From a virus: a stretch of 24,681 bases of DNA. This document shows positions 4,372 to 22,387 of this stretch, in pieces. How positions within the stretch are numbered: the stretch's first letter is position 1; the number at the start of each line of letters is the position of its first letter. Below the pieces are notes generated by a model. The model had not been told where the DNA came from, ran no database searches, and worked only from the letters and a program-made list of their open reading frames with translations. The DNA lies in the IMG/VR virus record IMGVR_UViG_3300037041_001183, positions 1-24,681 of that record; one strand, 5' to 3'. The translations under genes and the position numbers were made by a program.

Positions 4372-6900
4372 TCATGTCATGGATATCGTATGCGATGCTC
4401 CTAAGTAGTCGATAAACTGTAAGGCGTTTCCATCATAATTAATTGCTAAATATCCCGAACGGCTCCCATCGGATCGGGCGAAAAACCGCAACTCTCCTCC
4501 ATATTGTAACTTTAATTTCGACACTTCTATGAATTGCGAGTTTGCATTTATTGTCAGTCCTGATTGGTATTGCACGTAGTTGCTGCTTGTCAAGTTACCA
4601 TAAACTGTGATGGTAGTACCAGACCCAATCGTGCAGGCCCCCAATGTGCCCCTCACTGTAACGTTATTAAATTCGGCGCTGCCATCACCCTTAATCTGCC
4701 AACCTGCAGAGCCCACCGTAAAGGTCGTGCTTTGCATACCCCCATGAACGGTTAAGGTACTTGATGCATCAATATTCGTTACTTTAAGTGTCCCGGTAAA
4801 TTCCCCTGATGTGGCATAGACAGCCCCCCGGATTGTAGCTGAAGCAAAGTATGCAGTGCCATCACCTTTAATCTGCCAACCGGCGGGGGGACTGATAGTA
4901 AAGCCGGCACTCTGCATAGTACCGTTAATAGTGAGTGTCGACCCGGATTCAATATTCGTGGTTTTGAGGGTCCCCGTAAACTCTCCTGAGGTTGCCTTGA
5001 TTGCACCTTCTATGGATAGGGTGCTGCCGTTCCAGCTCAATTTAGGCGCACTGCTACCTCCGAGTTTCAGGGTGCCGTTCGTCAGGTTAATCTGCGACCC
5101 GAGTGTAGTGCTCCAGTTCGTGGATTCGAGGTTCCCCCGGATCTTGATATCGTTAAATTCAACGGACCCGCTACCCTTAATCAACCACCCGGACGTATCC
5201 GCAACGTATGAATCGCTCTGCATATTGCCGTGAACTGATAAGGTGCTGGAGGCATAGATGTTTGATGTCTTGAGAGTCCCGCTAAACTCTCCGGATGTGG
5301 CATAGATAACGCCCTTAATGGTGAGTGTTCCGGCGCTCTTATCCCATTTTACGCCCACATCCCCGGAATAATTGCCGATGATGATATCGCCTACATCAGT
5401 GCCTCCGACAATCGCCTTGAATACATCGTTTGTGCCATCTGTGATCTGGATGCCGGTGTTTACATCCGGGAATATCCGGACCCGCGCTCCCGATGCTGAT
5501 GAGTCATAAGTTCCCCCAACTTTCGCGGTTTTATCTGTGGGATTATATCCTGATGTGAATGTGCAATCCCCATCAATCTGAATATGGTTTGCCGCAATTT
5601 TCAGAGTTCCGGGAGGCGTTCCCTCAGTACTGGCATTTATTGAGGCAATAACAGATCCGCCAGTTACGGGAGTAAAATTAAGAGCCGTTATTTCAATGGT
5701 GTTTGCGGTTATTTCCCCGCCATTAATCGTAGTCTTTCCCGCGCTCTTCCACCCCTCTATAGTTACGGTGCCCTGGATCGTCACCTGCCCAGCACCAATC
5801 TGAACAGCCACATTCTGGGAAAGGCTCTGTTGTGATTTCACATCTGCAAACGAGTCGCTTAAATCCGGGGTGTTTGTGGACAGTTCAATCGTAATATTTT
5901 CCGGAGCGGAGAGATTGGTATCCACTCCGACGACTGATACATCTACGAGCAGGTTGTTTAGATCGCTGTTCACTACCCGGATCATCTGCCCGATCTCAAG
6001 GTTCTCATAATCGAAATCGAAATCAGAATGCTCTGCAAGGTTGACGGCATCCACCGTGTAATAGTAGATCGGGTTTTTGTACTGGGTGAGGACCTGGTTC
6101 GCCCATCTTAACAGGGTTGCAGGGTGCGTGATCCTACCATCCGTCTTGCGTTTCCGGGATATCCCGTAAGCAGTTTGCGAAGTTGTATCTTCGACATACT
6201 CATGCGCTTCGCCTGCATCGGTCAGGTTCAGGAGCCTCGAAACATCAGGGTTCTCAGCACCGTACGCGTACAGGCGATTGATAATCTGCGTGTAGTCTGT
6301 TTTTCTGGACACGCCTTTCATGTTTTTCTGGTATCGGATCTCCCGTATTGGAGAGCCGGATGGGGCATTATACCAGTTCAGCGCACGGTTTGAATCTACC
6401 TCTATATATCCCCCGAGATATTGGACGCACTCAAAGAGGGATTCGAGCATCCCGGCATTTTCAACCCGGAATGCAAATGGCGTTGTGGGCTGGATTGTGC
6501 CGACCGTGATCGCGGGCGTGCGGGCCTGCATTGCGAGGATGGCCGTGATGATCTGCGTGGGCGTCTTGGGGGTGACGGTCGTATCGTAAGTGATGTTATC
6601 TTCCTTCACAAGTTGAGAGATTACCCCGCTATAATTCGCATCGATGTAACTACCAGAAGAGGACCAGTGTTCGGCACAATCATCCAGTGTAAATAGATCT
6701 TCCCATCGCGCTTTGATCGTGTTGTAGATTTTGATATCATACGCAGATGTGAGATAGATCGCTTTCGGATCGCCGGCAGGTAAAGAGAATGATAACCCCG
6801 GGGTTTGGTTGATCTTCTTTGCTCGGCCAATACTGAACGCATTTTCGAGATACGCTGTCTTTGCCCCCGCCTGCGTGAATGCCCAGATTTGATAGGTCAT
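4372..6900 (-). CDS. Tal-like tail tip protein with repetitive C-terminal half (842 aa)
   Basis: The first 340 or so residues look like the N-terminal ring-forming part of prophage tail proteins (Prophage_tail/gp27-like fold), the central hub under the distal tail protein in siphoviruses. From about residue 350 the chain turns into glycine- and threonine-rich beta structure with three clear copies of ATSGEFxGTLK (about residues 532, 634 and 694), each followed by a 'STL.v.G.mqS' and a 'GW.IKGdG.a.f' element. Such repeats form elongated fibres. AAGGAG precedes the ATG at 6900. No peptidase or cell-wall hydrolase motif is visible, consistent with an archaeal S-layer host. In most siphoviruses this gene directly follows dit; here five other genes lie between. 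Confidence 0.82.
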   Translation of the reverse strand: MTYQIWAFTQAGAKTAYLENAFSIGRAKKINQTPGLSFSLPAGDPKAIYLTSAYDIKIYNTIKARWEDLFTLDDCAEHWSSSGSYIDANYSGVISQLVKEDNITYDTTVTPKTPTQIITAILAMQARTPAITVGTIQPTTPFAFRVENAGMLESLFECVQYLGGYIEVDSNRALNWYNAPSGSPIREIRYQKNMKGVSRKTDYTQIINRLYAYGAENPDVSRLLNLTDAGEAHEYVEDTTSQTAYGISRKRKTDGRITHPATLLRWANQVLTQYKNPIYYYTVDAVNLAEHSDFDFDYENLEIGQMIRVVNSDLNNLLVDVSVVGVDTNLSAPENITIELSTNTPDLSDSFADVKSQQSLSQNVAVQIGAGQVTIQGTVTIEGWKSAGKTTINGGEITANTIEITALNFTPVTGGSVIASINASTEGTPPGTLKIAANHIQIDGDCTFTSGYNPTDKTAKVGGTYDSSASGARVRIFPDVNTGIQITDGTNDVFKAIVGGTDVGDIIIGNYSGDVGVKWDKSAGTLTIKGVIYATSGEFSGTLKTSNIYASSTLSVHGNMQSDSYVADTSGWLIKGSGSVEFNDIKIRGNLESTNWSTTLGSQINLTNGTLKLGGSSAPKLSWNGSTLSIEGAIKATSGEFTGTLKTTNIESGSTLTINGTMQSAGFTISPPAGWQIKGDGTAYFASATIRGAVYATSGEFTGTLKVTNIDASSTLTVHGGMQSTTFTVGSAGWQIKGDGSAEFNNVTVRGTLGACTIGSGTTITVYGNLTSSNYVQYQSGLTINANSQFIEVSKLKLQYGGELRFFARSDGSRSGYLAINYDGNALQFIDYLGASHTISMT
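4766..5304 (-). repeat. Three imperfect tandem modules in the Tal-like gene
   Basis: Coding-strand copies of ATSGEF[ST]GTLKxxNI lie at about 5252-5304, 4948-4998 and 4766-4819. The first spacing is about 100 residues and the second about 60. Between them the elements 'STLTVHG.MQS' and 'GWQIKGDGSAEF' also recur. At DNA level the copies are diverged, so these are old protein-domain duplications, not recent DNA repeats. Confidence 0.7.
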
Positions 6901-7092: not shown

Positions 7093-8226
7093 TTACTTGT
7101 AACAAGCCCGCCCGCCAACAGCCGCATCGACATACGACGCAGCAACATACGCATTCACAAAGAAAGCGCCCGCACCCGCCGCATAACCCCAATGGCCACC
7201 GAATATCACCGCTCTGTTTCCAGTCCACGAGTACCCTGTATCGCAGAGGTAGGTGTTAAAGGAGGCGTTAGTAACCTGCGTTGCCGCGATGAACAGGTAA
7301 TCATACGTGCTGGAATAGATCGGGAGAGCTGCTTCTTCTCCATAGATTGTCGCCATGTTCAATCCGGTGTCAACGTAGGGATGCTCATACGTACCGCTAT
7401 CGTTGAATCCGTGATTGGCGATCCAGACGCGGCGTTCGAGTAGTTTTATACCATCGAACCACTTGTAAATATTCCCCCAGAAGTTCTCAATGCCGAATAT
7501 GCTGAACGACGCCAATCCCGCGCCCTGCGTAGATTCTCCTGACCCGTTGCCGGTATCTACACTCCCCGATCCAACTCCTGCGGTGAATCCGGTATTGCAG
7601 GCAGAGGTAGTATCCACTCGCCCTCGGTATACTGACTGCGAGTTGAGCGTGCAGTTCCTGATGATGAACAGTAACTGGATTGCAGAGACCGTGTTCCAGT
7701 CAATCAACTCCCAACCGGTCCCTCTTGCCCGGGCTCGTGTGCGGAACGTTGGTAGATCCTGCGATACGCCCAGTGCAACCCCTGCAGTTGACAGTAATTT
7801 GTAGGGAGAGCCCGCTTCGAATGCCCCTTCAAACGCCGAGACGTAGATAAAGTTTTTATCAACTCCATCGACCACGAATGCCGGGTGGATTTTATATCCT
7901 GCCCTTGGCGATGGTGAGATCGTATACCGGTACTTGTTTGCCAGCGAGTCGTTCCGATAGTAAAACTTCGGGATCTCGACCATTACCTGATCGGTTGCAT
8001 GAGTGTATGAGAACCCTGCTTTTCCATAATATGCACTCACCACCCCGGCATCTGTCAGGTTACACCTGCTGATTGCTCCGAATAATTTATGCCCTGCCCA
8101 CATGGCAGCCGTCATTGTGATCGCGTTGCCATACTGATCTGTCTGCACGAGAGTGGGGGAGGTGTTGTTTGTCGTCCACTCCACCCCGATGGTGTTGACG
8201 TCGTAATTCGATTTGATTATCCGCAT
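7093..8226 (-). CDS. C-type-lectin-like receptor-binding protein, DGR-target-like C-terminus (377 aa)
   Basis: The chain has the hallmarks of formylglycine-generating-enzyme/C-type-lectin fold proteins used by phages as adhesins. These include an early MVEIPKFYYRND, a central block with WELIDWNTVSAIQLLFIIR (about residues 171-190), GIENFWGNIYKWFDG (about 248-262), and a final RAVIFGGHWGYAAGAG ... VGGRACYK. This last block corresponds to the site that diversity-generating retroelements mutate in related proteins. A strong AAGGAGGT site precedes ATG 8226. It follows the fibre assembly chaperone directly and is probably the tail-tip adhesin contacting the host surface. No reverse transcriptase or template repeat is in the window, so current DGR activity is unproven; a non-diversified lectin domain is the alternative. 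Confidence 0.75.
   Translation of the reverse strand: MRIIKSNYDVNTIGVEWTTNNTSPTLVQTDQYGNAITMTAAMWAGHKLFGAISRCNLTDAGVVSAYYGKAGFSYTHATDQVMVEIPKFYYRNDSLANKYRYTISPSPRAGYKIHPAFVVDGVDKNFIYVSAFEGAFEAGSPYKLLSTAGVALGVSQDLPTFRTRARARGTGWELIDWNTVSAIQLLFIIRNCTLNSQSVYRGRVDTTSACNTGFTAGVGSGSVDTGNGSGESTQGAGLASFSIFGIENFWGNIYKWFDGIKLLERRVWIANHGFNDSGTYEHPYVDTGLNMATIYGEEAALPIYSSTYDYLFIAATQVTNASFNTYLCDTGYSWTGNRAVIFGGHWGYAAGAGAFFVNAYVAASYVDAAVGGRACYK
7096..7200 (-). other. Candidate variable region (VR-like), adenine-poor
   Basis: The last 35 codons of the lectin-like gene encode GGHWGY ... GGRACYK. A hand count gives only 10 adenines in 105 coding-strand bases. Adenine-directed mutagenesis from an A-rich template repeat leaves such depletion in variable regions. 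The layout (GGxW, small and aromatic residues alternating, GGR near the end) matches known target C-termini. The template repeat is not in the window. Confidence 0.4.
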
Positions 8227-10107: not shown

Positions 10108-11313
10108 TCAAATGCTCCTGTCCTTTTTAGAGACAACAATTGTTACTGTTCTTGATCCTAATGCGTCAGTGTAGACTACCGTATTCTCTCCGGGCAACAT
10201 TGCAGGGAAATCCCCTGTGAACCCGACCATTGCATTCGCTCCGTCGTTTTTGACAGTGAAATCATTTTTATCAATGCACAAGGTTTTACCCGCCGCTAAA
10301 GTGCCCGAAAATGTGAACGTCCACGAATCAATAGCCCGGAGCACCGCATAGATATCCGCTGCCGTGTCGATCTGGGATGATAACAGATGGGGAATCAGGT
10401 ATTTCGCATAGACATCAGATTTCGTGTCAATGTGAGCGCCAAGAAGCTGAGAGAGTTCAAACCCTGCATGGATGTTTGAAGTTGTGATCAGTGTTGCTTC
10501 TGCTTCCCATGCCGCAGATAATCTCGCAGAAATGTCTGAATCAGTGTCAAGATATGCCGCCAATGCCAGTAGCAGGGCCGTATGAACATCGCTGTTTGTG
10601 TCCTCATATCCCCGTAACAGGTGGTCGAGTCTTAGCCGTGCTTCCTGATCTGTGCCGTTATCCAGAAGTCCCGTCAGGTAACCGGATAGCCGGAGCCGGG
10701 CATAGAGATCTGAAACCGTATCTTCGTGTGAAGAAAGACCGTGGTTGATTCTCAGCCGGGCATATGCATCCGTTTGTGCATCCACATATGCCGAAAATGA
10801 TAATAGTAGTGCTGCGTGGATATCTGCGGTTGTTGCGGAATATGCCGATAGGGAGAGAGTAAGGGCTAATCGTGCACCTACATCTGCATATGTGCCGGAT
10901 TGCGCTTGTGGTGTTGTTCTCGCACTCCTGCGACTGTATCCGGAGCGGCTATATTGCCACTTCCCCCAATCGGAGGGAGTGCCGGTAACCGTTCGGGTTT
11001 TCAGGAGTTGTGTGATTTGCGGGCGGGCATACGTGCTGGATTCAGTATCCACAAACACGGTTAAGTTATCATCAAGCCGGAGCCGGGCATAGATATCTAC
11101 CCCTGAATCTGAATGCGCCGATAGTGTCAGCGGAATTTTGGCATAGATATCCGAGTTCGTGTCAAAGTACGATGCAAGATTGTCGCCAATACGGAGCCGG
11201 GCTGCCTGATCAGAAAAAGAATCAAGATAGGAGGATATATTGACGGGCCATACTAACCCGCCCTGTCGGCTGTATGCTGAGCCGCGATTAAATCCATCCC
11301 TACCCCATCGCAT
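10108..11313 (-). CDS. 18/20-residue repeat protein fused to the second half of a Dit C-terminal domain (401 aa)
   Basis: Residues 1-26 are a basic Arg/Gly start (MRWGRDGFNRGSAYSRQGG). Residues about 27-330 hold some 14 copies of a repeat with the pattern 'DT.SDiyARLRL...L..y', spaced 18 or 20 residues, with one interruption at about 107-135 that resembles the N-terminus (KWQYSRSGYSRRS). Residues 331-401 (WTFTFSGTLAAGKTLCID, then GFTGDFPAMLPGENTVV, then VTIVVSKKDRSI) match the second half of the beta-sandwich C-terminal domain of siphovirus distal tail proteins. That half is missing from the distal tail protein encoded at 11753-12325. The regular Asp/Ala spacing suggests a solenoid or fibre. 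No strong ribosome binding site precedes ATG 11313. Confidence 0.75.
   Translation of the reverse strand: MRWGRDGFNRGSAYSRQGGLVWPVNISSYLDSFSDQAARLRIGDNLASYFDTNSDIYAKIPLTLSAHSDSGVDIYARLRLDDNLTVFVDTESSTYARPQITQLLKTRTVTGTPSDWGKWQYSRSGYSRRSARTTPQAQSGTYADVGARLALTLSLSAYSATTADIHAALLLSFSAYVDAQTDAYARLRINHGLSSHEDTVSDLYARLRLSGYLTGLLDNGTDQEARLRLDHLLRGYEDTNSDVHTALLLALAAYLDTDSDISARLSAAWEAEATLITTSNIHAGFELSQLLGAHIDTKSDVYAKYLIPHLLSSQIDTAADIYAVLRAIDSWTFTFSGTLAAGKTLCIDKNDFTVKNDGANAMVGFTGDFPAMLPGENTVVYTDALGSRTVTIVVSKKDRSI
10330..11235 (-). repeat. About 14 tandem 18/20-residue protein repeats
   Basis: The unit core is SDIYARLRL or a close variant (SDLYARLRLSGYLTG, TDQEARLRLDHLLRG, SDVHTALLLALAAYL, SDVYAKYLIPHLLSS). 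Units of 18 residues lose two positions after the RLRL stretch. Coding-strand DNA copies share a recurrent stretch around 'agccgggcatagatatc' on the plus strand but are diverged. Expansion probably occurred by unequal recombination in the past. Confidence 0.75.
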
Positions 11314-11752: not shown

Positions 11753-12325
11753 TCAAACCTCGTAGTAATTCGTGATAGTGAATCCAGTTATCGGGCTGGC
11801 CCCGTTGTTCTTAACGCAAATCTTAGCAGGTGTCTCGACATTGCCCGAAGAGGCAATGGTCATTGACCCCCCGCTGGTTGTAATCGCTGCACTGGTCGCG
11901 TCTTCCGGCTCGTAAGCATACGGATCGTCGGCGATCAGGTTGAGCGTAAATTCACTGCATCCTACCCATGCACGGTCAAACGGGATTTGACCAGCATATC
12001 TGACCGTATATGTAAGCGTCGGTGCGTCGTCAAAGATTAATGTGAGTTGCCGGGGTCTGCCTTGCACACCCACGAGCACCCGGGCAAACGCTCTGATGAG
12101 CGTGTCCAAGGCAGCGGCATCCGCACAGTTCCGGAAATCGCAGGGTAAGGAGAACGTGCGGGGGCCGATATCAGAGTCAAACCAATAATTGCCCGCCCTG
12201 CCGGGGATCTCTACTGTGCGGTCTCTGGTTTCTGGCAGGAATGGTTGGCCCGGGGCGTATCGTAATGTGACGCCGTAGGTGCTGCAAGGGATTCCATCGA
12301 TGGTAAAGCCTCCATTGTCGGTCAT
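11753..12325 (-). CDS. Distal tail protein (Dit), C-terminal domain cut short (190 aa)
   Basis: Residues 1-130 match the Sipho_tail (Dit N-terminal) domain: ETRDRTVEIPGRAGNYWFD (about 32-50), FSLPCDFRNCADAAALDTLI (about 58-77), FARVLVGVQGRPRQLTLIFDD (80-100), and FTLNLIADDPYAYEPE (126-141). This domain forms the hexameric ring joining tube and tip. From about residue 145 the C-terminal beta-sandwich begins (SGNVETPAKICVKNNGASPI) but the chain stops at TNYYEV, where full-length relatives continue for about 70 more residues. The missing part is found at the end of the 401-residue protein 440 bases downstream. The start overlaps the tape measure stop (ATGA). Dit identity is secure by sequence and position. 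Confidence 0.82.
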   Translation of the reverse strand: MTDNGGFTIDGIPCSTYGVTLRYAPGQPFLPETRDRTVEIPGRAGNYWFDSDIGPRTFSLPCDFRNCADAAALDTLIRAFARVLVGVQGRPRQLTLIFDDAPTLTYTVRYAGQIPFDRAWVGCSEFTLNLIADDPYAYEPEDATSAAITTSGGSMTIASSGNVETPAKICVKNNGASPITGFTITNYYEV

Positions 12326-14799
12326 GATATGCCTCGACCGCGATTGGTGCGTGTTATCAAAGTTTGAAGTTCGATGGCGATTGCCTTTATATCGCCGTCA
12401 TTTCTGACGTTGAACGTGTTTCCTGTGATGGTTACGCCTCCCATAGCGCCAGCACTGCCCCCTGATAATGGAATCACGGCTTCGGGTCCGGCTTCCCCAA
12501 TCATAGCAAGTGTCGGTGATGTGACAATGCCGCCGGATGCAAGGCGCGGGATTGGCGCGATATCGAATCCTATGTGTGTCGGCGGGCCACCGAACAGGTC
12601 CGGGATGTCGAAAGATAGCGCGTTTACGCCTTCGATCATGCTGTTGATGCTGTCGATGGCGATGTTGATCATGCCGGTGATGCTGCCTGTTATCCCGTCC
12701 ACTATACCCATGATGAAATCTGAAGTGGCTGAGATCGTGTCTTCCATACCCCCCCAAAGGTTATCCCATGCGTCTTGTAGGGGGTAGATCAGAGCGTCGA
12801 ACGCCCATTCAATTGCATCTGTGAGCCCCTCGACAATCCCGGTAATAATATTAGAAGCGCTTTCAGTCACCCATGAAACATCATCCCAGAAGGATTCCCA
12901 CTGGTCTGATATTGCGCCAATAGTCCAATCAAACGCCCATTCTATGCCCTCCATCAATGCGTCAATCAGTCCGGTGATGAGATCGGCTGATTCCTGTGCA
13001 ACCCACGTGATGGCATTCCAGACATCTTCCCAATCATACCCGAGCGCCTGTAAGGTCATTGAGACAAGGCCGATGGGGCCGAGCAGGACCGTGAACGCAA
13101 CCCCGATCACATCTATGCCCGCAGTAGCTTCTGTGAGCCAGCCGATGAACGGGGCGATCACACTGTCCGAGAGCCATTGCCAAGCAACACCGAGAGCGTC
13201 TGCACATGCACTGACGACTCCGAACTCTGTTTCAAGCAGGATTATAACTGCTACAAGTCCGACGATAGCTGCAACGACTAACACAATGGGATTTGCAGCG
13301 AGGAATAATAGTGAGGTATTTACTAATCCTATCAGCGCTGGCAATCCGGTAATACCGATAATGAGCGGTCCTGAAATTGACATCGCCGCTGCCAATCCAT
13401 CAAGGGGTTCAAGGGTTGTCCCGGCGGATAGCGCAAACTCATCGAAGGCGGATTTCATCTTATCGGTTGATCCGATGCTCGTTTCAGCCGCATCCGCATA
13501 CGCCTTTGTGGACCCGCCAGCGCCCTCGATTTTAACTTTATATGCATCTACTTGATCTTTTGTGAGCCCCAACGCATCATAAAACGCCTCCGTTTTGTTC
13601 GTCGAATCGCCCATTAAAAATACAAGTTCTTTTTGAGATAACCCGTTTAAGACAATCGCCGCCTCGTTATCGGTTTGCGCCTTCGTATTATCTTTTTGCG
13701 CTTGAGTGTTATCTGTGGTTTTGGTTTTCAAGTCTGTTTGTCTGGCGATTAAATCGTCGTGTGAATACGTGAGACTTTCAATCCGCAGTTTTTGCTCTTC
13801 CAGACGGATGTTAAACTCCTGTGCGGTTTCGTTTTCGCCTTTCCCCTCGGTCTGCATTTTTTGCAGATCAATTTGGGCGGATTGCATCGCGAGTGAGTTT
13901 TCTTTAAGTCCGAGCGTCGTATCTCTGGTTGCAGTCGATAGGTCTTTTTGGGTTTGGGCGAGGTCTTTTTCGGCACGGTCAAGATCTTTTGATGTTTGTT
14001 CGAGGTCTTTGGATTGCGTGATTGCATCTGATAATGCTGTCTGATAATCCCCGAACTGCGTATCCATTTCGCCGACTGCAAGGCGCAGCGCCTTTGTTGC
14101 CGCCGTGCCCTGCAAGCCCGCGTCAGACATAGCCAATAACAGCGCTTCGGTATCTTCCATCGACAGCCCCATCGCATCAAGTTTCGGGGCCAGCACACCT
14201 ACCGTTCCGGCGAAATCTTCAAACGAGATCGTGCTGTTTTTAGTCAGGTATGTGATACCGTCAACATGATCCCCCACTTCTGTGAGCGGGATGTCGAACG
14301 CATTAAACGCAGGAATTAATGATTCAGTAACGGTTGCAGCACTTGTCCCGGTTGCGTCTCCTAAATCATCAAATGCTGCAGCGGTTGCTGCCAGCTGATC
14401 TTCGGTCAATCCAGATCTTGCCAACAAATCAAACGTCGCAACTACATCATCGAGTGGGAATCCCGCATCTGAACTGGCAAGAGCGAGGTCCCGCAGTTCC
14501 TCAGTAGTACTTCCAAGAGTGATCGCTGTGCCTGCCAACTGGGAATTAATTTCTCTGGCGTTATCAGTGAGTGCCAGAACCGCAACTCCTGCGGTGGTCA
14601 TGCCCGCCCCCAACGCAGTAATCTCGGTTTTATTGTCTTTAATCGTCTGCGTGAATCCCTTGAACGTGCTATCGGATTTTGCAGCGGCATCGTCGGTTTC
14701 GGTTAATCCTTTTTTGACTTCCGATACTCCCGCCGTAAATCCGGTTGTATCCGCGAGAAAATTGACAATTAGACTTTCAGCAGATTCCATTAACCCCAT
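12322..14799 (-). CDS. Tail tape measure protein (825 aa)
   Basis: This protein sets tail length and fills the tube before DNA ejection. The N-terminal 240 residues resemble the conserved tape-measure core (FPLDDVVATFDLLARSG, SFEDFAGTVGVLAPKLDAMG, GLQGTAATKALRLAVGEM). Residues about 250-380 are a long charged coiled coil. Residues about 470-525 are hydrophobic and membrane-like (LIIGITGLPALIGLVNTSLL onward). Residues 590-715 hold three Trp-rich 44-residue repeats. Residues about 750-775 carry the family motif LASGGIVTSPTLAMIGEAGP. GGAGGAGGT lies before ATG 14799, whose first base overlaps the stop of the GT frame (TAATG). By the usual 1.5 angstrom per residue rule the tail would be about 120 nm. 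Confidence 0.9.
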   Translation of the reverse strand: MGLMESAESLIVNFLADTTGFTAGVSEVKKGLTETDDAAAKSDSTFKGFTQTIKDNKTEITALGAGMTTAGVAVLALTDNAREINSQLAGTAITLGSTTEELRDLALASSDAGFPLDDVVATFDLLARSGLTEDQLAATAAAFDDLGDATGTSAATVTESLIPAFNAFDIPLTEVGDHVDGITYLTKNSTISFEDFAGTVGVLAPKLDAMGLSMEDTEALLLAMSDAGLQGTAATKALRLAVGEMDTQFGDYQTALSDAITQSKDLEQTSKDLDRAEKDLAQTQKDLSTATRDTTLGLKENSLAMQSAQIDLQKMQTEGKGENETAQEFNIRLEEQKLRIESLTYSHDDLIARQTDLKTKTTDNTQAQKDNTKAQTDNEAAIVLNGLSQKELVFLMGDSTNKTEAFYDALGLTKDQVDAYKVKIEGAGGSTKAYADAAETSIGSTDKMKSAFDEFALSAGTTLEPLDGLAAAMSISGPLIIGITGLPALIGLVNTSLLFLAANPIVLVVAAIVGLVAVIILLETEFGVVSACADALGVAWQWLSDSVIAPFIGWLTEATAGIDVIGVAFTVLLGPIGLVSMTLQALGYDWEDVWNAITWVAQESADLITGLIDALMEGIEWAFDWTIGAISDQWESFWDDVSWVTESASNIITGIVEGLTDAIEWAFDALIYPLQDAWDNLWGGMEDTISATSDFIMGIVDGITGSITGMINIAIDSINSMIEGVNALSFDIPDLFGGPPTHIGFDIAPIPRLASGGIVTSPTLAMIGEAGPEAVIPLSGGSAGAMGGVTITGNTFNVRNDGDIKAIAIELQTLITRTNRGRGIS
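12700..13032 (-). repeat. 44-residue Trp repeats in the tape measure protein
   Basis: Units begin with W at residues 590, 634 and 678 (coding positions 13032, 12900 and 12768). Each reads W[ED]xxWxxxxW...ESA..IITG[IL]...L...IEWAFD, with the third copy partial. Regular Trp spacing is common in tape measures and matches the helical symmetry of the tube. Confidence 0.8.
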
Positions 14800-15496
14800 T
14801 ATTTCTTACCTCCTCCTTTACACCAGAGTTTCAGCGTATCAAAGATCTTCTGGGCGTCGTTCTTTTTCTTAATGGGTGTTTCAGAGTCAACCTTCCCGCA
14901 GTTCACGAAATCGGACGGTTTATACGGAGTAGATTTCTTTTTCGGGTTGCGGTTGGCATTCGCTATTACCGAACATATCAATCCTACCCGCTCGTTTTCT
15001 GCATACATTTCTTTTGTCCTCCGTTCGTCTTGTGCTGCAATATAGGGGTGAAATTCGCCGGGAGTGAGATCCCAGAACTCAGCAGGCGTTAACCCGCTGA
15101 CCCGGTACGCGACGGCTTGGCAGTCTTTGAGGTATGCTCCGAGGCTGCGGGGATGATCGGGGTCTGGCTCGGGTTTTTTCCTTTGTCATCACCGAGTTTC
15201 CCGAGCCAGTCTTGTGCGGTTTCCATGATATCTTTCATAACAGAAATAAACATTTTCTGCCCTTTTTCACGGATGAAATCTTCACAAAGATCTCCTGCTT
15301 GGTCAAGCGTGATACTGGTGCTTCCGTACGCGTTTATGCCCGCACACAAGATCCCCCGATACGCAGAAAGGGGGGCTTTTTGGAAATCCTCTAAGTTCCC
15401 TCCCTGCCGGTTGAAATCTGCAAGTGCGTTGAATGAGATCCGCACGTTGTAGACTTTCCCGTTTACCTCGAAAGTTGAATGTCTCCTGCCGTCCAT
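14799..15496 (-). CDS. Tail assembly chaperone GT fusion, made by -1 frameshift (about 232 aa)
   Basis: The G frame runs from ATG 15496; a slippery A AAA AAC at 15179-15173 lies exactly in the X XXY YYZ register of that frame. Slipping back one base gives a further 124 codons ending with TAA at 14799-14801. The added part has the T-domain features of lambda-like gpGT: SGLTPAEFWDLTPGEFHPYI, then RRTKEMYAENERVGLI and KSTPYKPSDFV. The region of this second frame between 15173 and 15008 has no start codon yet is well conserved in type, which only makes sense as a fusion. In lambda the GT product recruits the tube protein to the tape measure. A 69-residue internal start at 15008 is possible but has no good ribosome binding site. 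Confidence 0.78.
15089..15496 (-). CDS. Tail assembly chaperone G-like protein (135 aa)
   Basis: This is the unshifted product. Residues about 8-95 match the G-type tail chaperone fold: FEVNGKVYNVRISFNALADF, then SAYRGILCAGINAYGSTSIT and LDQAGDLCEDFIREKG. The last 27 residues after the slippery site are Pro/Ser/Thr-rich and look unstructured, as expected of the short product. AGGTGAG precedes ATG 15496. It lies between the tube protein and tape measure genes, the classical location. G and GT together coat the tape measure during tail assembly. Confidence 0.85.
   Translation of the reverse strand: MDGRRHSTFEVNGKVYNVRISFNALADFNRQGGNLEDFQKAPLSAYRGILCAGINAYGSTSITLDQAGDLCEDFIREKGQKMFISVMKDIMETAQDWLGKLGDDKGKNPSQTPIIPAASEHTSKTAKPSRTGSAG
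15173..15179 (-). promoter_or_regulatory. Programmed -1 ribosomal frameshift site, A AAA AAC
   Basis: The zero-frame codons are GGA AAA AAC, so the heptamer A AAA AAC is in the exact register for simultaneous P- and A-site slippage. The following -1 frame is open for 124 codons and encodes the T domain. I did not find an obvious strong hairpin directly downstream, but the following 60 bases are GC-rich (CCCGAGCC and CCCGCAGCCTCGG). Confidence 0.8.
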
Positions 15497-15507
15497 GTCT
15501 CACCTGA

Positions 15508-16260
15508 TTATGGGTGTGCTGTGTTTCCGCCGCATACACGTATCCAGTAGATCTTCGGGGTCTTGCTGTTTTCCGTGACAGCGATTGATACATACGTCAC
15601 CTGCCCAGATCCCACATTCGTTGTTAAATTCCCGGATGCAACCCCTGTTGCAACGGAGGTCCCATTGATATAACAGGTTCCTGCGGTGAATACCGGGGTG
15701 ATTTTGATGTATGCCGTATCCGAGTAAGATTCGAGATCATACTCATAGACTACCGCAGCTGCTGCCGGAACGGGGGTCAATGGGTTTGCGTCGTCATCGA
15801 CAATACCAAAGAACGTCGTGGTTAATCCCGTTGCCCATGTGGTGACCGGATCGGAGAGTCTGCCGTTTACCGTGACTTCCATTTCGATGAATGCCGGGCC
15901 GTCTCCGTCGATGTTGAGTTTGCATTTGGCAATCTGCCCGCTGAAATTGAACGAGATCCCGCCGGGGGTTGGGCCGAATGTTGGGGGCAATACGATAGTC
16001 CATGTATCGAAATGACGGTCGTAAATGTCATCCAGTAGGGAGTTCTGGGCGGTTGAGCCGATGTAATACACCTTGAATGCAAGGTTCTCATTATCGATCC
16101 ACGTTACGCATTTTGTTCGCACTCCGCCGATGTTGTTCTGTGCGGAAGTGTCCTTTACATCTGCGCTCTGTCCGGGGGTGCTTGGCTCATACATTTCGCC
16201 AATGACCAGCCCGTTTTGCATTATAAACGTTCCGAGTGTTGATTTCGCTTCTTCAGTCAT
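15508..16260 (-). CDS. Major tail (tube) protein with extra C-terminal beta-sandwich (250 aa)
   Basis: Residues 1-135 resemble the lambda-V-like tube subunit: a loop-rich start (NGLVIGEMYEPSTPGQSADV), then DRHFDTWTIVLPP and ISFNFSGQIAKCKLNIDGDG with FIEMEVTVNGRLSDP, the end of the tube fold. Residues about 165-245 form a separate domain with the pattern of cadherin-like/Ig-like beta-sandwiches (SDTAYIKITPVFTAGTCYIN, then VSIAVTENSKTPKIYWIRV). Such domains decorate the outside of many phage tails. GGAG lies 9 bases before ATG 16260. Position next to the G/GT genes confirms the role. Confidence 0.85.
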   Translation of the reverse strand: MTEEAKSTLGTFIMQNGLVIGEMYEPSTPGQSADVKDTSAQNNIGGVRTKCVTWIDNENLAFKVYYIGSTAQNSLLDDIYDRHFDTWTIVLPPTFGPTPGGISFNFSGQIAKCKLNIDGDGPAFIEMEVTVNGRLSDPVTTWATGLTTTFFGIVDDDANPLTPVPAAAAVVYEYDLESYSDTAYIKITPVFTAGTCYINGTSVATGVASGNLTTNVGSGQVTYVSIAVTENSKTPKIYWIRVCGGNTAHP

Positions 16261-16274
16261 TTGTTTGCTCCTTG

Positions 16275-16700
16275 TTACAGTCTGTAATCATACAATACGA
16301 TGACATCCCGATGCCGCATGTAAAGCACCGGAATAAGGTCTGTGTTCGCGTCCGGGCGTGAGCCTCCATCCGTGATTTTCTGGATGAAAACTTTCCCGGT
16401 TCCTGCCGTTAACAGGGTGTTCACCGTGCGATGCAATGCGTCACGGACGATCCGCGAGATTTTCCCCGCTTCACCGCCGCCCGTGCCGGTTGATAAGATT
16501 GTGCATTGTATCCGGGTTGATACCCAGCCGCCTGTGCTGTGGTCTACCGGGGTTGAATCGCTGATTTCTGATACGATGATGGCCGGGTATGTGGGATTTG
16601 ATGGCAGAGTGTTTCGATATATGCGAGTGCTAACCAACGTCGTTAATGGCGTATATGCCAGTAATTTCGTGATAATTGCATACTCTACGTCGTCACTCAT
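16275..16700 (-). CDS. Tail terminator-like protein (DUF3168/gp17-like, 141 aa)
   Basis: The features are an N-terminal helix (EYAIITKLLAYTPLTTLVST), 'RIYRNTLPSNPTYPAIIVSE', then a beta hairpin with RIQCTILSTGTGGGEAG, a helix (KISRIVRDALHRTVNTL), and a closing strand pair ending VIVLYDYRL. This is the layout of tail completion/terminator proteins that cap the tube at the neck. It lies directly before the tube gene and its start overlaps the stop of the gp10-like gene (ATGA), the standard order in siphoviruses. Confidence 0.8.
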   Translation of the reverse strand: MSDDVEYAIITKLLAYTPLTTLVSTRIYRNTLPSNPTYPAIIVSEISDSTPVDHSTGGWVSTRIQCTILSTGTGGGEAGKISRIVRDALHRTVNTLLTAGTGKVFIQKITDGGSRPDANTDLIPVLYMRHRDVIVLYDYRL

Positions 16701-17083
16701 TCGGTCATCTTCTCCAAGAACATTGTTTTATATTTCTCACGGTGCTGGTCCATCGCCGCCCGGATATACGGTTTCGGGGCTTGGTGGTATGACCTGCCGA
16801 GTTTGTCCTTACCGACGAATCCATACTCTACCCTGCGGGCGTATTCGACATTAGTCCCAACAACCACATACTGCGCTCCTTTCCCCTGCTGAAATGTCCC
16901 GGAAGTGGGTTCGATATGAATCGAGTGCAGGAGCGTGTGTGTAATCCACGGCGTTATGGCTTTCGCATCGTTTTCGTATTCTTGTGCAATCAGCCGAAGT
17001 GCAATTGATTGGTTTTTATCAGTTTTTTTCTCGGAGTCGTCAAGCGCCTTCATGAGTTCCGGGAGACCCTTGATTGTGGCCAT
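16697..17083 (-). CDS. HK97 gp10-like tail completion protein (128 aa)
   Basis: The motifs IKGLPELMKALDD (residues 3-15), a long helix with 'QEYENDAKAITPWITHTLLHS', then YVVVGTNVEYARRVEYGFVG and KPYIRAAMDQHREKY are the signature of HK97 gp10-like neck/tail proteins ('EYA..vEyG...P.Py.r.A'). I prefer ATG 17083; a GTG one codon upstream overlaps the previous stop as GTGA, but the AGGTG site leaves almost no spacing for it. It works at the head-tail junction together with the terminator encoded next. Confidence 0.85.
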   Translation of the reverse strand: MATIKGLPELMKALDDSEKKTDKNQSIALRLIAQEYENDAKAITPWITHTLLHSIHIEPTSGTFQQGKGAQYVVVGTNVEYARRVEYGFVGKDKLGRSYHQAPKPYIRAAMDQHREKYKTMFLEKMTE

Positions 17084-17376
17084 CACGCACCTATCCAGAA
17101 CTTATCCACAACCCAGAGCAGTAATCCCCATGCTGCAACCAGCCCCGTGCCTCCAATGGCGAAGTATGTGTCGTGGTTTTTTACTTTGTCCATTGCAGTT
17201 GATACGGATTCGGGAGAGGGGTATTTCGCAGAGTTCAACCGTACCGCCTCGATCTGTTCTGCGTAGTTTGTTTGGAATGCCTCGATTTTCGTAATTACTT
17301 TCTCGATATTTTCCAGTTTTATGCAGATCGTGTTCAGTGTAATCCGCTGGCTGCATTCGTGTTCTTCATCGTTCAT
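17083..17376 (-). CDS. Small coiled-coil protein with one C-terminal membrane segment (97 aa)
   Basis: Residues about 10-70 form a charged coiled coil (ICIKLENIEKVITKIEAFQ), followed by one hydrophobic segment at about 73-91 (FAIGGTGLVAAWGLLLWVVD) and a short tail. The topology resembles XhlA-type membrane proteins and some phage holin-associated proteins. No sequence family is recognised. It sits between neck genes, with ATGA/GTGA overlaps on both sides, so it is made together with them. A lysis, membrane anchoring or ejection role is possible; the sequence does not decide. Confidence 0.75.
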   Translation of the reverse strand: MNDEEHECSQRITLNTICIKLENIEKVITKIEAFQTNYAEQIEAVRLNSAKYPSPESVSTAMDKVKNHDTYFAIGGTGLVAAWGLLLWVVDKFWIGA

Positions 17377-17930
17377 GATGCTCTCGCAAGTGTGCAGGTA
17401 TAATTAAACGGTGCTGTCGTGCTCCAGGCATACGCTGGAGTGACAGAGTTAATCCCGAATGTTCCGACGTATCCTACCGCTGTGCATGTGATAGTATCCC
17501 CTTCGGCAACCGTCACCGCCCCGTCAAGCAATACCTTAAGAGTAGTTTCCCCATAGAGAGATACCCCTCCCACCGTCCTTACCATATCCTGCGATGAGAA
17601 GAACCGGCATGTTACAGTTGAATTAACGCTTGTAGTGGTTGGCTGCCCGTATTCGTCAAGGGTTTGCGTGATAACACCGTTAACAACCGCCGCTCCTGGG
17701 ACCGTGCCGTTGTCCCTGATTACCTCATCATTTTGAAAGGTGCCGGTAATGGTATGCAGCGTTAAACTGCCGGATGCGATACTGCCAATGGATACAATTA
17801 CAGCGGTTGCGTGGGATGTTGCGCCGGTTAGCGTTTTTCCCACAGTGAATACTGCTGTTCCCCCGTCATATCCGAGCGTATAAACCTGCTTTGTGCTGTG
17901 CAGGGTTGCGGTGTGAACCATCCCTTTCAT
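17373..17930 (-). CDS. Neck/head-tail joining protein with inserted 'GATS' module (185 aa)
   Basis: The second half (VTCRFFSSQDMVRTVGGVSL, ETTLKVLLDGAVTVAEGDTI, then GFINSV-like GTFGINSVTPAY) has the look of small beta-barrel head-tail joining proteins. Residues about 28-75 form a different short module (FTVGKTLTGATSHATAVIVS, then GSLTLHTITGTFQNDEVI). This module recurs in many phage virion proteins as 'F..GetvtGatSgAta...GtLtL..vsGtFq.gE.I'. It lies just after the connector gene and its start overlaps that gene's stop (ATGA). The specific neck role is inferred from position. Confidence 0.7.
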   Translation of the reverse strand: MKGMVHTATLHSTKQVYTLGYDGGTAVFTVGKTLTGATSHATAVIVSIGSIASGSLTLHTITGTFQNDEVIRDNGTVPGAAVVNGVITQTLDEYGQPTTTSVNSTVTCRFFSSQDMVRTVGGVSLYGETTLKVLLDGAVTVAEGDTITCTAVGYVGTFGINSVTPAYAWSTTAPFNYTCTLARAS

Positions 17931-18370
17931 TCGATCAACTCTGAGAAGAATACCGGCGGGGTTGATTGGTCTAACCGGAAGTCTTTCATATCAGCATCAG
18001 AACGGGTGATTTCAGAGGTTTCAGTATAGTTGGTCTGTTGCCGTCCGAGTTCTTCGGCCATTCGTGCATATGCCTGTTCTCGCAGATACTTTGCCGCCCC
18101 GAAATGATCGGATACTCCGCTCTGGGAATAATCCCCGGCTGAATATGCGGTTGGGTTTTCCCCGGTGACGTTGAACCGTTCAGCTACTCGTGCACGGGTG
18201 AGAAACACAGATATGATCTTTGCTGCCGTCGTTGTTGGGGAATATGATCCCCGCGCTGCAAAGTATTGGGTAATCTCACTGTCCGAATCCGCGATCATGT
18301 ATCCCAGATCGGCATCGGATACCACTGTGCCAACATAGACTTTTACATCCGCTGCTACGCAATACGCCAT
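17927..18370 (-). CDS. Head-tail connector/adaptor (gp6/gp36-like, 147 aa)
   Basis: An all-helical protein starting YCVAADVKVYVGTVVSDADL and continuing through AADSDSEITQYFA-like helix (MIADSDSEITQYFAARGSYS), a long helix ISVFLTRARVAERFNVTG, and KYLREQAYARMAEELGRQQ. This is the layout of adaptor proteins that bind under the portal (DUF1320/gp36-like). Its tail is acidic (SELIE). ATG 18370 abuts the previous stop with no gap. Together with the next three genes it makes the neck. Confidence 0.75.
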   Translation of the reverse strand: MAYCVAADVKVYVGTVVSDADLGYMIADSDSEITQYFAARGSYSPTTTAAKIISVFLTRARVAERFNVTGENPTAYSAGDYSQSGVSDHFGAAKYLREQAYARMAEELGRQQTNYTETSEITRSDADMKDFRLDQSTPPVFFSELIE

Positions 18371-19729
18371 TTAGACCGCCTCCAGCCAACCACGATACGT
18401 ACATGTGCAAATCGCATCTGCACTCGTAGCATCCCCGATCACCGACATTTTAATGTCGGTTCCTGTGGGAAATTTTATCGGGAAATCCAGATGCATGTTA
18501 TACGCTGAATCCTGAATTCCGATCTCGTAATAGGGATATAGCAGGCCGGATGTGGCTTGTGCCTGGTCATCATAGGTCGCTCGCAGCGTGAAACGTGCAT
18601 ATCGCCCGCCCGCTGAATTGCCAACAGAACACGATAATTGAGAAATGTATAGCGTTTTGTCAACAGGAACGGTATAGATGCTATTCCGAGCGCGGGTATT
18701 CCCGATTGCGATCCTCGAATAGATAGTTCCTAATGTGATGTGCCGAATGTCGATGGTTCCGGCTGCCGATCCTCCCGTGCCTGCCGTCAGAACCCGGAAC
18801 GCATTAATCCGGTAGATATCTGTGGCAACGGTTGGAACTGGCGTAACTCCTGTGAGCGTAACAACTTCAGTTTTTTCAACGAATGTGTTTGTGAGATACC
18901 AGATTTTAATCGTTAATGCTCCGGTTCCCGCAGCCGCGTCTGCTGTACTTGAAGAGACAACTTCCATCCTCTGTGATGCTGCGGGGAATACATACATTCC
19001 ACCAACAACCCACATATCCTCTTCCGCCGCATCTACATCGGCGTTATAGCCCGTTTTAAAGAACGGAGTATGCCCGGTGATGTTGCCTTCAACAATATCA
19101 TAGCCATACGGCATGGACGAAACGCGAAGTTTGCTATCTGCAAGCGGATTGTCTTTAATGGTTACGGATTTGAGGTCCGCCGCTTGTAGTGCTGGCAGAA
19201 CAACGGGAATTGATGATGCTGCGAGTGCCTGGCCTTGTGCGGGGATCTTATCAGTGTTCGTTTTAACGCTTGCAAGATTCCCGCCCGTTTCTTCAGCGTA
19301 ATTGGTGATGGCCGGAATCGGGGTTAATGTGGTCATCTGTGCTGCCGGAAGCACAACAGGAATTGAACCCGCTGCAAGTGCTTGACCTTGAGCCGGTATC
19401 TTATCAGTGCTTGTTTTAATCGCTGCAAGATTAACATCGTCAGTGGCAATGCACATCCGCTGCGTTCCCGCGCTGTTATTCCCTGCATTTACTGCCGTAG
19501 CAGTTCCCGCCACTTTCTCAATATCAGAGGTAAACGTGCTGCCCGAAACTGATACCGATAAAACGCCCACATCAACAGGCAATTTAACACCCGGAGATAT
19601 AACCGCGAACTTCTGCAACCCGCTTTCCATGAACGGGATGATCTGCGAGTAAACATCGTTTGCTATGGCTTCCTGTGCTGTTTGCGCCGCTGCGAATGTT
19701 AGATACGGGGTTACAGTCCAGTTTACCAT
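18371..19729 (-). CDS. Head-fibre/decoration-like structural protein (452 aa)
   Basis: There are three parts. Residues 1-50 share a module with the neighbouring 48-residue protein (QKFAVI, PFMESG). Residues about 95-185 hold two near-identical copies of a 'NLAAIKTSTDKIPAQGQALA...SIPVVLPA' element, a stretch common in virion fibre proteins ('IPAQGQALA'). Residues about 235-450 form a beta-rich C-terminal domain (MWVVGGMYVFPAASQRMEVV, then TVATDIYRINAFRVLTAG, and YTVPVDKTLYISQLSCSVG), known from uncharacterised virion proteins of diverse phages. It lies in the head-neck module, so it probably decorates the capsid or neck. No catalytic motif is seen. Confidence 0.75.
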   Translation of the reverse strand: MVNWTVTPYLTFAAAQTAQEAIANDVYSQIIPFMESGLQKFAVISPGVKLPVDVGVLSVSVSGSTFTSDIEKVAGTATAVNAGNNSAGTQRMCIATDDVNLAAIKTSTDKIPAQGQALAAGSIPVVLPAAQMTTLTPIPAITNYAEETGGNLASVKTNTDKIPAQGQALAASSIPVVLPALQAADLKSVTIKDNPLADSKLRVSSMPYGYDIVEGNITGHTPFFKTGYNADVDAAEEDMWVVGGMYVFPAASQRMEVVSSSTADAAAGTGALTIKIWYLTNTFVEKTEVVTLTGVTPVPTVATDIYRINAFRVLTAGTGGSAAGTIDIRHITLGTIYSRIAIGNTRARNSIYTVPVDKTLYISQLSCSVGNSAGGRYARFTLRATYDDQAQATSGLLYPYYEIGIQDSAYNMHLDFPIKFPTGTDIKMSVIGDATSADAICTCTYRGWLEAV

Positions 19730-19733
19730 TTAC

Positions 19734-19880
19734 TCACGCCTTGACGATTACAATAAATTTCTGCTTTCCGGATTCCATGAACGGGACGACCTGAACGAGT
19801 TTGTCAGTAACTGCCGCGTTAGCTGCTGCTTGTGCTGTTGCTGCTGTTGCATAGATTGTTGACACGTAAGCGTCTGGCAT
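19734..19880 (-). CDS. Small protein paralogous to the N-terminus of the head-fibre-like protein (48 aa)
   Basis: A 48-codon frame from ATG 19880 to TGA 19734-19736, with GAGGCGG before the start. The chain reads like the first 48 residues of the next protein. Both have an Ala/Thr/Gln-rich helix (ATAATAQAAANAAV here; FAAAQTAQEAIANDV there) and then a shared PFMESGxQKFxVI. The frames are adjacent, with the next ATG three bases beyond the stop. The gene therefore arose by duplication of this module, or the larger gene captured a domain. It may be an attachment or trimerisation partner. Confidence 0.7.
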   Translation of the reverse strand: MPDAYVSTIYATAATAQAAANAAVTDKLVQVVPFMESGKQKFIVIVKA

Positions 19881-19890
19881 TCAGACCGCC

Positions 19891-20721
19891 TCACGTCGAA
19901 TATGCGTCCGCGAGCTCGGAATAGACACCCGCGTCTGTCCGGTACGCACACCCGCGATAGGTGAGCACCTGCGCGGCGTCGACGGTTAGCCCGGACGCCA
20001 GCACAACGGTGTGCAGCAGGGTCACCTCTGAGGCTATCGCTCCGGTTACCGTCAGACCTCCTATCAGAGTGCTGTTGCGGAAGCGCGCCCGGTCGTCTGC
20101 GGTTGCCGTGGTGAAGCCGACAAGTCCTTCAATCTCGTCGCAGTCTTCCGCATAGAGACGGATGGCCTGACCGGCGGTGGTGTGGGCCACAGTGATTGAA
20201 TTACCCGTGCTCACCTGACTCATGGAGACGCTCTTCAGGTGAATGATGAGTTTGCGCGTGCCCATGCCTGCATTGTCGACCTTGAGCCCGATCTGTGCGG
20301 AATGCTCGATGCAGACATTCTCAAGGAACGCCTCAAAGGATGCTGTGGTGAACGCCGGATCGATGGTGATCACGGCTGCTGCTGCGTTTGCATTGCTGAT
20401 GACAACATTTCCATTGCCGTCCATACCCTTGACGATAACGCCGTTGACGCTCGGCCATGTGATCATCGCGGCCTCTGCGTAGTCACCGGGCATTATGTAG
20501 ATTGCTTTCCGTGCCGTGGTGACAGCGGTCATCGCCTTTGTCAGCGTCGCGTATGGGTTCTGCCACGATCCGGTACCGGTGGTGTCGCTGCCGCTGGTAC
20601 TCACGACAATATACGTCGGGTCGTTGCCGTCCTGGATACTGGCGAGTTCGGTTGCGAGTTTTTCAAGAAGAGATCCTTTTTCTTCCCGCAGTTCCTTTGC
20701 GGTTTTTGCTGTATAAGTCAT
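19891..20721 (-). CDS. Beta-helix (pectate-lyase-like fold) virion protein (276 aa)
   Basis: An N-terminal helix of about 30 residues (ELREEKGSLLEKLATELAS) is followed by the opening of a right-handed beta-helix: VVSTSGSDTTGTGSWQNPYA, then AIYIMPGDYAE (about residues 73-83) and repeated short strands with Asn/Gly turns (KGMDGNGNVVISNANA). This fold is used by phage tailspikes and by capsid-bound proteins. No catalytic Asp/Glu pair can be named, so enzyme activity is unproven. It follows the major capsid gene, so it may be a capsid-bound protein. GGAG precedes ATG 20721. Sampled lines are 55-63% GC, above its neighbours. Confidence 0.72.
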   Translation of the reverse strand: MTYTAKTAKELREEKGSLLEKLATELASIQDGNDPTYIVVSTSGSDTTGTGSWQNPYATLTKAMTAVTTARKAIYIMPGDYAEAAMITWPSVNGVIVKGMDGNGNVVISNANAAAAVITIDPAFTTASFEAFLENVCIEHSAQIGLKVDNAGMGTRKLIIHLKSVSMSQVSTGNSITVAHTTAGQAIRLYAEDCDEIEGLVGFTTATADDRARFRNSTLIGGLTVTGAIASEVTLLHTVVLASGLTVDAAQVLTYRGCAYRTDAGVYSELADAYST

Positions 20722-20799
20722 TTTTTGTTATCTCCTGAAGTTTTTATTTCACTCTATTCTGCCGGGTGCGGGAGAAGCCCCCGGAAAAAAGAGGGGTGA

Positions 20800-21750
20800 T
20801 TAGAGGCCGTTGTCGTAGAGATACCCGTAAGCATCCTTGACAACAACAACCGAATCCATCCAGAGCTGTATAACGGTGTCGTGGGTGTCGTCCTCGAAAA
20901 ACTGATGGGTATTGAGGCCGAAGTTCGGCACGGTCTTTACAACCGGAGCGCCGTTGACGACGGTTTCATACTGGATCTCCTGCGTTGAGAACTGCGGGTC
21001 GTTGTTATAGAACATCGCGCCCGCCGGGTGGTTCCGGTCAAGCATGAAGATATCGCCGTGAGTGATTCCACTGGAGAGACCATGTAGAATGGGTTTGCCC
21101 TCAATCGGCATGGTGAATGCATCAGTGAGAGGCACATTGATCGCCGCATCCCGATACTGTGGGATCTCGGATGCAATCAGGTATCCTTCCATCTCTCCAA
21201 GGTTCGTCTGGTCAACGAATGCATCAGTAAGCCGATATGGATATCCTTCCCGCTTCATTGCATTCTTGAAATTCTTCATGTCTGCAATCGGGGTTGCGGT
21301 TGCTGCTGACCATACCGCTGTTGGTGTGATACCCGCATCTGTGCCGCCAGCACGCAGAACAGTATAAATCTGCGTGTTGAGGTATTCCGCCAGCCAGTAT
21401 CCGACAGTCTGATAACCGTCCATGATCATGTCACGGCCTGCCGGGAGTTTGATCGCGTCCTTATCCAGCCGGATTGCCAGCCCCTCCGCCTTGGTGATGG
21501 CGGTTGACTTGGTGATCCTCGAAATCTGCACTTCGGGGAATTTGCTGGATGGGGTGGTTAACCGGGGAGTCTGCTTTTTGGTATCCGCCGATGCACTACC
21601 TTTCTTTCCATAGACAACCGGCATCCCTTCGGAGTTCACGAACGGTAAAAGGTCCATGAACTTCATATCGGGTTCCATTACCCGCAGAATTTCCGAGAGG
21701 ACAACGGGCTGCTGAAGGAATCTGTCATTTACGCCTGAAATTTGTACCAT
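20800..21750 (-). CDS. Major capsid protein, HK97-type (316 aa)
   Basis: Length, position after a protease-scaffold and decoration gene, and the layout point to an HK97-fold coat protein. The features are an N-terminal arm (QPVVLSEILRVMEPDMKFMD), a Lys-rich loop (VVYGKKGSASADTKKQ), a long helix (MDGYQTVGYWLAEYLNTQIY, about residues 107-126) like the spine helix, and a beta-rich C-terminal part (PILHGLSSGITHGDIFMLDR and FSTQEIQYETVVNG). The family call is structural, by pattern; I do not recognise a specific named family. A strong AAGGAGGG site 9 bases before ATG 21750 fits high expression. Confidence 0.85.
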   Translation of the reverse strand: MVQISGVNDRFLQQPVVLSEILRVMEPDMKFMDLLPFVNSEGMPVVYGKKGSASADTKKQTPRLTTPSSKFPEVQISRITKSTAITKAEGLAIRLDKDAIKLPAGRDMIMDGYQTVGYWLAEYLNTQIYTVLRAGGTDAGITPTAVWSAATATPIADMKNFKNAMKREGYPYRLTDAFVDQTNLGEMEGYLIASEIPQYRDAAINVPLTDAFTMPIEGKPILHGLSSGITHGDIFMLDRNHPAGAMFYNNDPQFSTQEIQYETVVNGAPVVKTVPNFGLNTHQFFEDDTHDTVIQLWMDSVVVVKDAYGYLYDNGL

Positions 21751-21763
21751 TTCTTTTCCCTCC

Positions 21764-22381: not shown

Positions 22382-22387
22382 TTTCTC

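Follow-up and report, generated by a model that had tools for sequence, protein, structure and literature searches.

A conserved slippery heptamer and probable -1 frameshifting between two probable tail chaperone frames in a probable methanogen virus

How could a viral protein be completed from a second reading frame that offers no start codon before its 57th codon? The question is raised by IMGVR_UViG_3300037041_001183, a linear IMG/VR virus record of 24,681 bases (the whole of which is called the window here), in which two overlapping open reading frames (ORFs), G and T, sit directly upstream of the tape measure gene with T in the -1 frame. They are very probably the tail chaperone pair of a siphovirus-like tailed virus, probably a methanogen's (Methanomicrobiales), and the fusion GT would be made by -1 slippage of ribosomes at the heptamer A AAA AAC. 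What this analysis shows directly is the anatomy of the site, that it is conserved and that the -1 frame carries a coding signal. Both frames, their heptamer and all window genes with family matches lie on the minus strand, as do the individual window ORFs named below.

The slippery site and its conservation

G is a 135-codon ORF (15496-15089) for a predicted 135-aa gpG-like tail assembly chaperone, the zero-frame product. A AAA AAC occupies 15179-15173, where its AAA (K107) and AAC (N108) are codons 107-108 of the zero frame, so that the exact register claimed in a sequence-only reading of this DNA is correct. The -1 frame is open from 15185, two codons before the heptamer, to a stop ending at 14799. 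T (14799-15172) would thus form the C-terminal extension of a predicted 232-aa G-T fusion. When counted after the slip (15170-14799), the -1 frame has 124 codons with the stop included, as that reading had it. Its earliest ATG, GTG or TTG is an ATG at 15008, codon 57 from the heptamer, in agreement with the statement that the first 55 codons hold no start codon.

The window's 24 zero-frame ORFs, 6,978 codons in total, contain 10 in-frame sites of the form X XXY YYZ (Y = A or T), and the chance expectation is 0.047 such heptamers per 33-codon overlap. The heptamer alone is not rare, because a second in-frame AAAAAAC occurs at 17182 in an unrelated 97-aa ORF (17083-17376), where it probably arose by chance.

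Conservation of the heptamer in relatives had been set beforehand as a test. Relatives were taken from IMG/VR, and 18 loci plus the window gave a set of 16 (window included) after L021, L034 and L035, near-identical to L020 and L033, were dropped. The other 15 members are 39-54% identical to the window in G and 34-54% in T. All 16 keep X XXA AAY at the homologous place: AAAAAAC in 9, GGGAAAC in 5, AAAAAAT in 1 and CCCAAAC in 1. With every one of the 16 non-redundant relatives carrying a heptamer at this position, chance is untenable. Moreover, in 11 of the 16 members the open stretch of the -1 frame starts just 0-9 nt ahead of the heptamer, and therefore the slip could hardly lie upstream of the heptamer.

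The wider set of 47 loci found with a T profile includes near-duplicates as well as two later-found relatives outside the 16 (contigs 3300005936_000162 and 3300002220_000582), and the scanned stretch is long in L114, L120 and L123. In 44 of these 47, a heptamer stands in phase and the zero-frame ORF extends at least 60 codons upstream. Among ten distant loci, L023 lacks a heptamer, and L015 and L016 have G/C heptamers only; all three are outside the 16.

Coding before any start codon, and the internal ATG

From the heptamer to the end of the LTPxEF motif, 11 of the 16 members have no ATG, GTG or TTG. In the window, 26 codons separate the G stop from the ATG (15009-15088), and this stretch carries GLTPAEFWDLTPGEF. 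Over these codons, the mean ratio of nonsynonymous to synonymous differences (pN/pS, 120 pairs) is 0.305 for the -1 frame, as against 0.92 (zero frame) and 1.71 (+1 frame), and the 16 sequences contain 0, 21 and 23 stops in these frames, respectively. By these comparisons, the -1 frame alone shows purifying selection over the stretch, which has no stops there and must therefore be reached by frameshifting. Initiation at 15008 is unable to make it.

This bears on the explanation that T is produced only as a separate 69-aa protein from ATG 15008, without any frameshift. The ATG is preceded by GGAGG nine bases upstream, 14 of the 16 relatives are similar, and its duplex energy with the anti-Shine-Dalgarno sequence (anti-SD), -9.5, is within the range of window gene starts (-0.3 to -11.5, n = 16). 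The most conserved T motif, which is under selection in the -1 frame, lies upstream of the ATG, however; the match to the family TAC_6 (residues 19-51 of the -1 frame) also precedes the ATG, and the heptamer in 16 of 16 members would be left without explanation. We regard production of T in this way alone as highly improbable.

Slippage of RNA polymerase on A runs is known in other systems, and a run of at least 6 A is found at the site in 10 of the 16 members, the window among them, as would suit a fusion produced by the polymerase rather than by the ribosome. But the GGGAAAC of 5 members and the CCCAAAC of 1 contain no homopolymer longer than 3 within the heptamer, and what is conserved is the pattern for tandem re-pairing, which leaves the polymerase a similarly slim chance of being responsible. 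That an assembly or sequencing error split one fused gene into two frames, as might befall a metagenomic contig with a homopolymer, is hardly conceivable given the identical two-frame layout in 16 of 16 non-redundant records and a heptamer joining a chaperone-position ORF pair in the isolate Blf4, described below.

Besides ribosomal -1 slippage, which we thus prefer as the source of GT, a free C-terminal T (14799-15008, 69 aa) may possibly be made from the internal ATG, beside GT and not in place of the frameshift. This product would cover the match to the family Phage_tail_T, as ATG 15008 is located at the start of that match, on the boundary between TAC_6 and Phage_tail_T. Its energy of -9.5 corresponds to a z-score of -2.5 relative to synonymous shuffles. 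Across the members, the energy at the first ATG past the motif is -6.3 or below in 14 of 16, and z is negative in 16 of 16 (mean -1.22). Internal ATGs of the 24 window ORFs (n = 113) have a mean z of 0.03, with a fraction of 0.08 (9 of ~113) at or below -6.3; for those of the 16 G frames (n = 52), the values are 0.24 and 0.096; and ATGs further along the 16 T frames (n = 31) have a mean z of -0.47, with 8 at or below -6.3. The distant T loci have no SD-like excess (21 of 27 with an ATG to score, mean z -0.01, 5 at or below -6.3). In L037 the sole ATG after the motif is codon 108, which would yield 12 aa; a plausible start is therefore found in 15 of 16.

In a first pass, the start codon nearest upstream of the NxR motif was scored instead, and mean z over the 16 was -0.90, with L003 and L037 positive. 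The switch to the first ATG lying past the LTPxEF motif and 10 further codons was made after this result, and the -6.3 threshold was set after seeing the data. The 16 members are related and do not count as 16 independent cases. Because of this relatedness and the refinement of the test after a first look, the evidence for free T is a lead.

It is conceivable, at somewhat less than even odds, that the clade makes three products: G, a GT fusion for which methanogen ribosomes slip into the -1 frame on the heptamer unaided, and a free T, roughly 60-76 aa long, initiated at a conserved SD-ATG. If so, frameshifting and internal initiation together would set the G:GT:T balance. An independent 69-residue product, which the sequence-only reading had named as grounds for rejecting the frameshift, need not exclude it; the sequence suggests that both may be made. 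The internal start allows a simple test of T as a free protein.

Chaperone identity, proposed mechanism and host

G matches PHROG 2115 ('tail protein') at 2.7e-7. All 16 members have this match, and 3 of 16 also match PHROG 183 ('tail chaperone protein'). T matches Pfam TAC_6 (8.6e-5) and Phage_tail_T (6.1e-5, residues 57-114), which are found at E ≤ 0.01 in 10 and 7 of the 16 members, respectively. The AlphaFold model of G has a mean predicted local distance difference test score (pLDDT) of 70.7, with two strands followed by helices and low confidence from residue 102, in the heptamer region. Its first match by both Foldseek and VIA-align is 2ob9, the HK97 tail assembly chaperone, which is suggestive of a chaperone, short of proof. 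T is modelled as helical. The family matches and the weak fold matches fit tail chaperones of the gpG/gpGT type. The lambda-like G/GT assignment made earlier is supported by gene order, family matches on both halves, the heptamer in 16 of 16 and -1-frame coding before a start codon.

We conceive that a majority of ribosomes would read G to its own stop and yield the 135-aa chaperone. In a minority, the tRNAs on AAA and AAC would slip back by one base to pair with AAA AAA, after which translation in the -1 frame would give the 232-aa GT. By analogy with lambda, G would coat the tape measure protein, recruitment of the tail tube protein would fall to the T part, and the slip rate would set the G:GT ratio.

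The host is probably a methanogen of Methanomicrobiales, as suggested by kinship with Methanoculleus virus Blf4 (MZ171369), an isolate with a Methanomicrobiales host. The relative G012 has a major capsid protein identical to that of the window over 316 aa, and for its TerL the best of 1,526 matching phage records is Blf4 (50.1%). The primase/helicase of another relative, G018, matches Blf4 at 54.4% and the other records listed at 38.2% or less. A single scan of genome contigs yielded three weak bacterial loci: L015 (Rhodobacteraceae), L016 (Dehalococcoidia) and L017 (Oscillospiraceae). In the phage collection, T has one match, at 40% over 64% of the query, to a Syntrophomonadaceae phage whose CCCAAAC lies at position 3947 of L056; viruses assigned to bacteria thus carry this T family too. 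Neither G nor the major capsid protein has a match in that collection.

Several points tell against the reading as a whole. Three of the 47 T-profile loci (L111, L113 and L123) lack a heptamer. No stem-loop is shared downstream, as examined by eye over 70 nt from 5 nt past the heptamer in the 16 sequences, and an SD-like excess upstream of the heptamer is not significant in the same sequences (mean z -0.49, synonymous shuffles). The TAC_6 and Phage_tail_T matches of the window T are both just under the curated cut-offs, and the match of G to 2ob9 is weak (Foldseek E 0.21; VIA-align Z 4.2 and root-mean-square deviation 4.6 over 83 residues, tied with 3fgx). For the host, kinship is the whole of the evidence, the next matches of the G012 TerL are Rhizobium phages at 46.6%, and a rough TATA count, which relies on crude gene starts, is no better than shuffles in the window (1 of 15 heads vs a shuffle mean of 0.57) and mixed elsewhere. 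That slippage occurs, its rate, the chaperone function and the host are all what we infer from sequence.

Codon-shuffle z-scores for folding of the 70 nt downstream range from -4.2 (L037) to +1.5, in modelling that covered neither covariation nor pseudoknots. The segment upstream of the heptamer is G-rich in most members (-9.1 at about -11 in the window), and synonymous shuffles give nearly the same. Since there is neither a conserved downstream structure nor a significant upstream SD-like excess, the site rests on the heptamer.

Known systems and gene neighbourhood

In phage lambda, gpG and gpGT are produced by a -1 frameshift at G GGA AAG. The window pair would use the same type of G/GT frameshift with A AAA AAC in place of that heptamer; its sequence likeness to the lambda pair is distant only, and its host is probably archaeal. 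We know of no conserved internal start in the lambda T.

The lambda G/GT frameshift has counterparts in long-tailed phages (PMC5009743). Among haloviruses, the G-T heptamer is G GGA AAC in HVTV-1 and HCTV-1, A AAA AAC in HCTV-2 and G GGA AAG in HCTV-5 (PMC8211752, PMC5009743), and it is G GGA AAT in Hardycor1. Judged from layout and heptamer, these haloarchaeal viruses are like the window virus in being archaeal tailed viruses with the same gene pair and the same heptamers, but their hosts are haloarchaea, whereas that of the window virus would be a methanogen. According to PMC8211752, one cellular -1 frameshift had been reported in archaea by 2021, and the viral cases named are from haloviruses. 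The literature background was drawn from PMC8211752, PMC10885494, PMC3711429, PMC7911831, PMC5009743, PMC8540584, PMC8651126 and PMC11705971. In the open-licence literature, no report of a tail frameshift in methanogen viruses was found.

The sequence-only reading had proposed a clear case of programmed -1 frameshifting on archaeal ribosomes, provided that the host is archaeal. An archaeal host is indeed probable by kinship, but the case is not the first, because G-T frameshifting has already been published for haloviruses, at AAAAAAC and GGGAAAC. With G-T frameshifting at such heptamers already known from haloviruses, the window case probably adds a methanogen virus.

Candidate sites are also present in two isolated methanogen viruses, and no frameshift is annotated in the record of either. 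In Blf4 (L053, 13007-13620), whose TerL, primase and other genes are related to those of the window virus group, a 119-aa ORF carries A AAA AAC in phase close to its 3' end, at 13354-13360. As in the window, its -1 frame is open (13336-13620) just before the tape measure gene. It differs in that the G and T profiles of the window family do not detect the pair and in that the annotation of its T part begins at an internal start, 13459, which lacks an SD-like sequence. Methanobacterium phage psiM2 (NC_001902; L054, 13209-13948) has an in-phase A AAA AAG at 13712-13718 in ORF19, with an unannotated 78-codon -1 frame open over 13712-13948. It differs in its A-site AAG and in a host of another order, and its site is less secure because the tape measure gene follows only after some 700 nt. 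Given these candidate sites and a family conserved among viruses of probable methanogen hosts, -1 slippage on methanogen ribosomes would become measurable.

A role of queuosine for the A-site AAC was also considered, but AAC is present in distant T loci too and psiM2 has AAG, which weakens the idea. In Drs3 (L055, 23208-23909), no -1 heptamer was found before the tape measure gene. A +1 frame there stays open beyond where ORF30 ends, a possible +1 frameshift.

Around the pair, the window has a tail gene neighbourhood. The 250-aa gene directly upstream of G (15508-16260) is, by position, probably that of the major tail (tail tube) protein; it has no match in PHROG and Pfam searches and is 66-82% identical to its three best relatives. 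The tape measure protein (12322-14799, 825 aa) matches PHROG 58 at 6.8e-29 and PhageMin_Tail at 3.4e-19, and its ATG overlaps the T stop by one base (TAATG). Family matches further identify the major head protein (20800-21750), tail completion proteins (16275-17086), a distal tail protein (11753-12325) and a tail endopeptidase/tip protein (4372-6900).

The head-side genes (17373-23704) are 89-100% identical to G012 (loci L043 and L044) where matched, with the major capsid at 100%, and 19891-20721 has no match in G012. The tail genes downstream of the head side, G and T included, are about 40-72% identical to G012. A sharp mosaic boundary relative to G012 is thus located near 17,100-17,400.

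Incidentally, a 377-aa protein without a Pfam match (7093-8226) has a W/G-rich C-terminus, which we take to resemble the variable C-type-lectin proteins of diversity-generating retroelements. A 401-aa protein (10108-11313) contains many 'SDIYARLRLDDNL'-type repeats, and its matches to relatives are scattered over several overlapping stretches.

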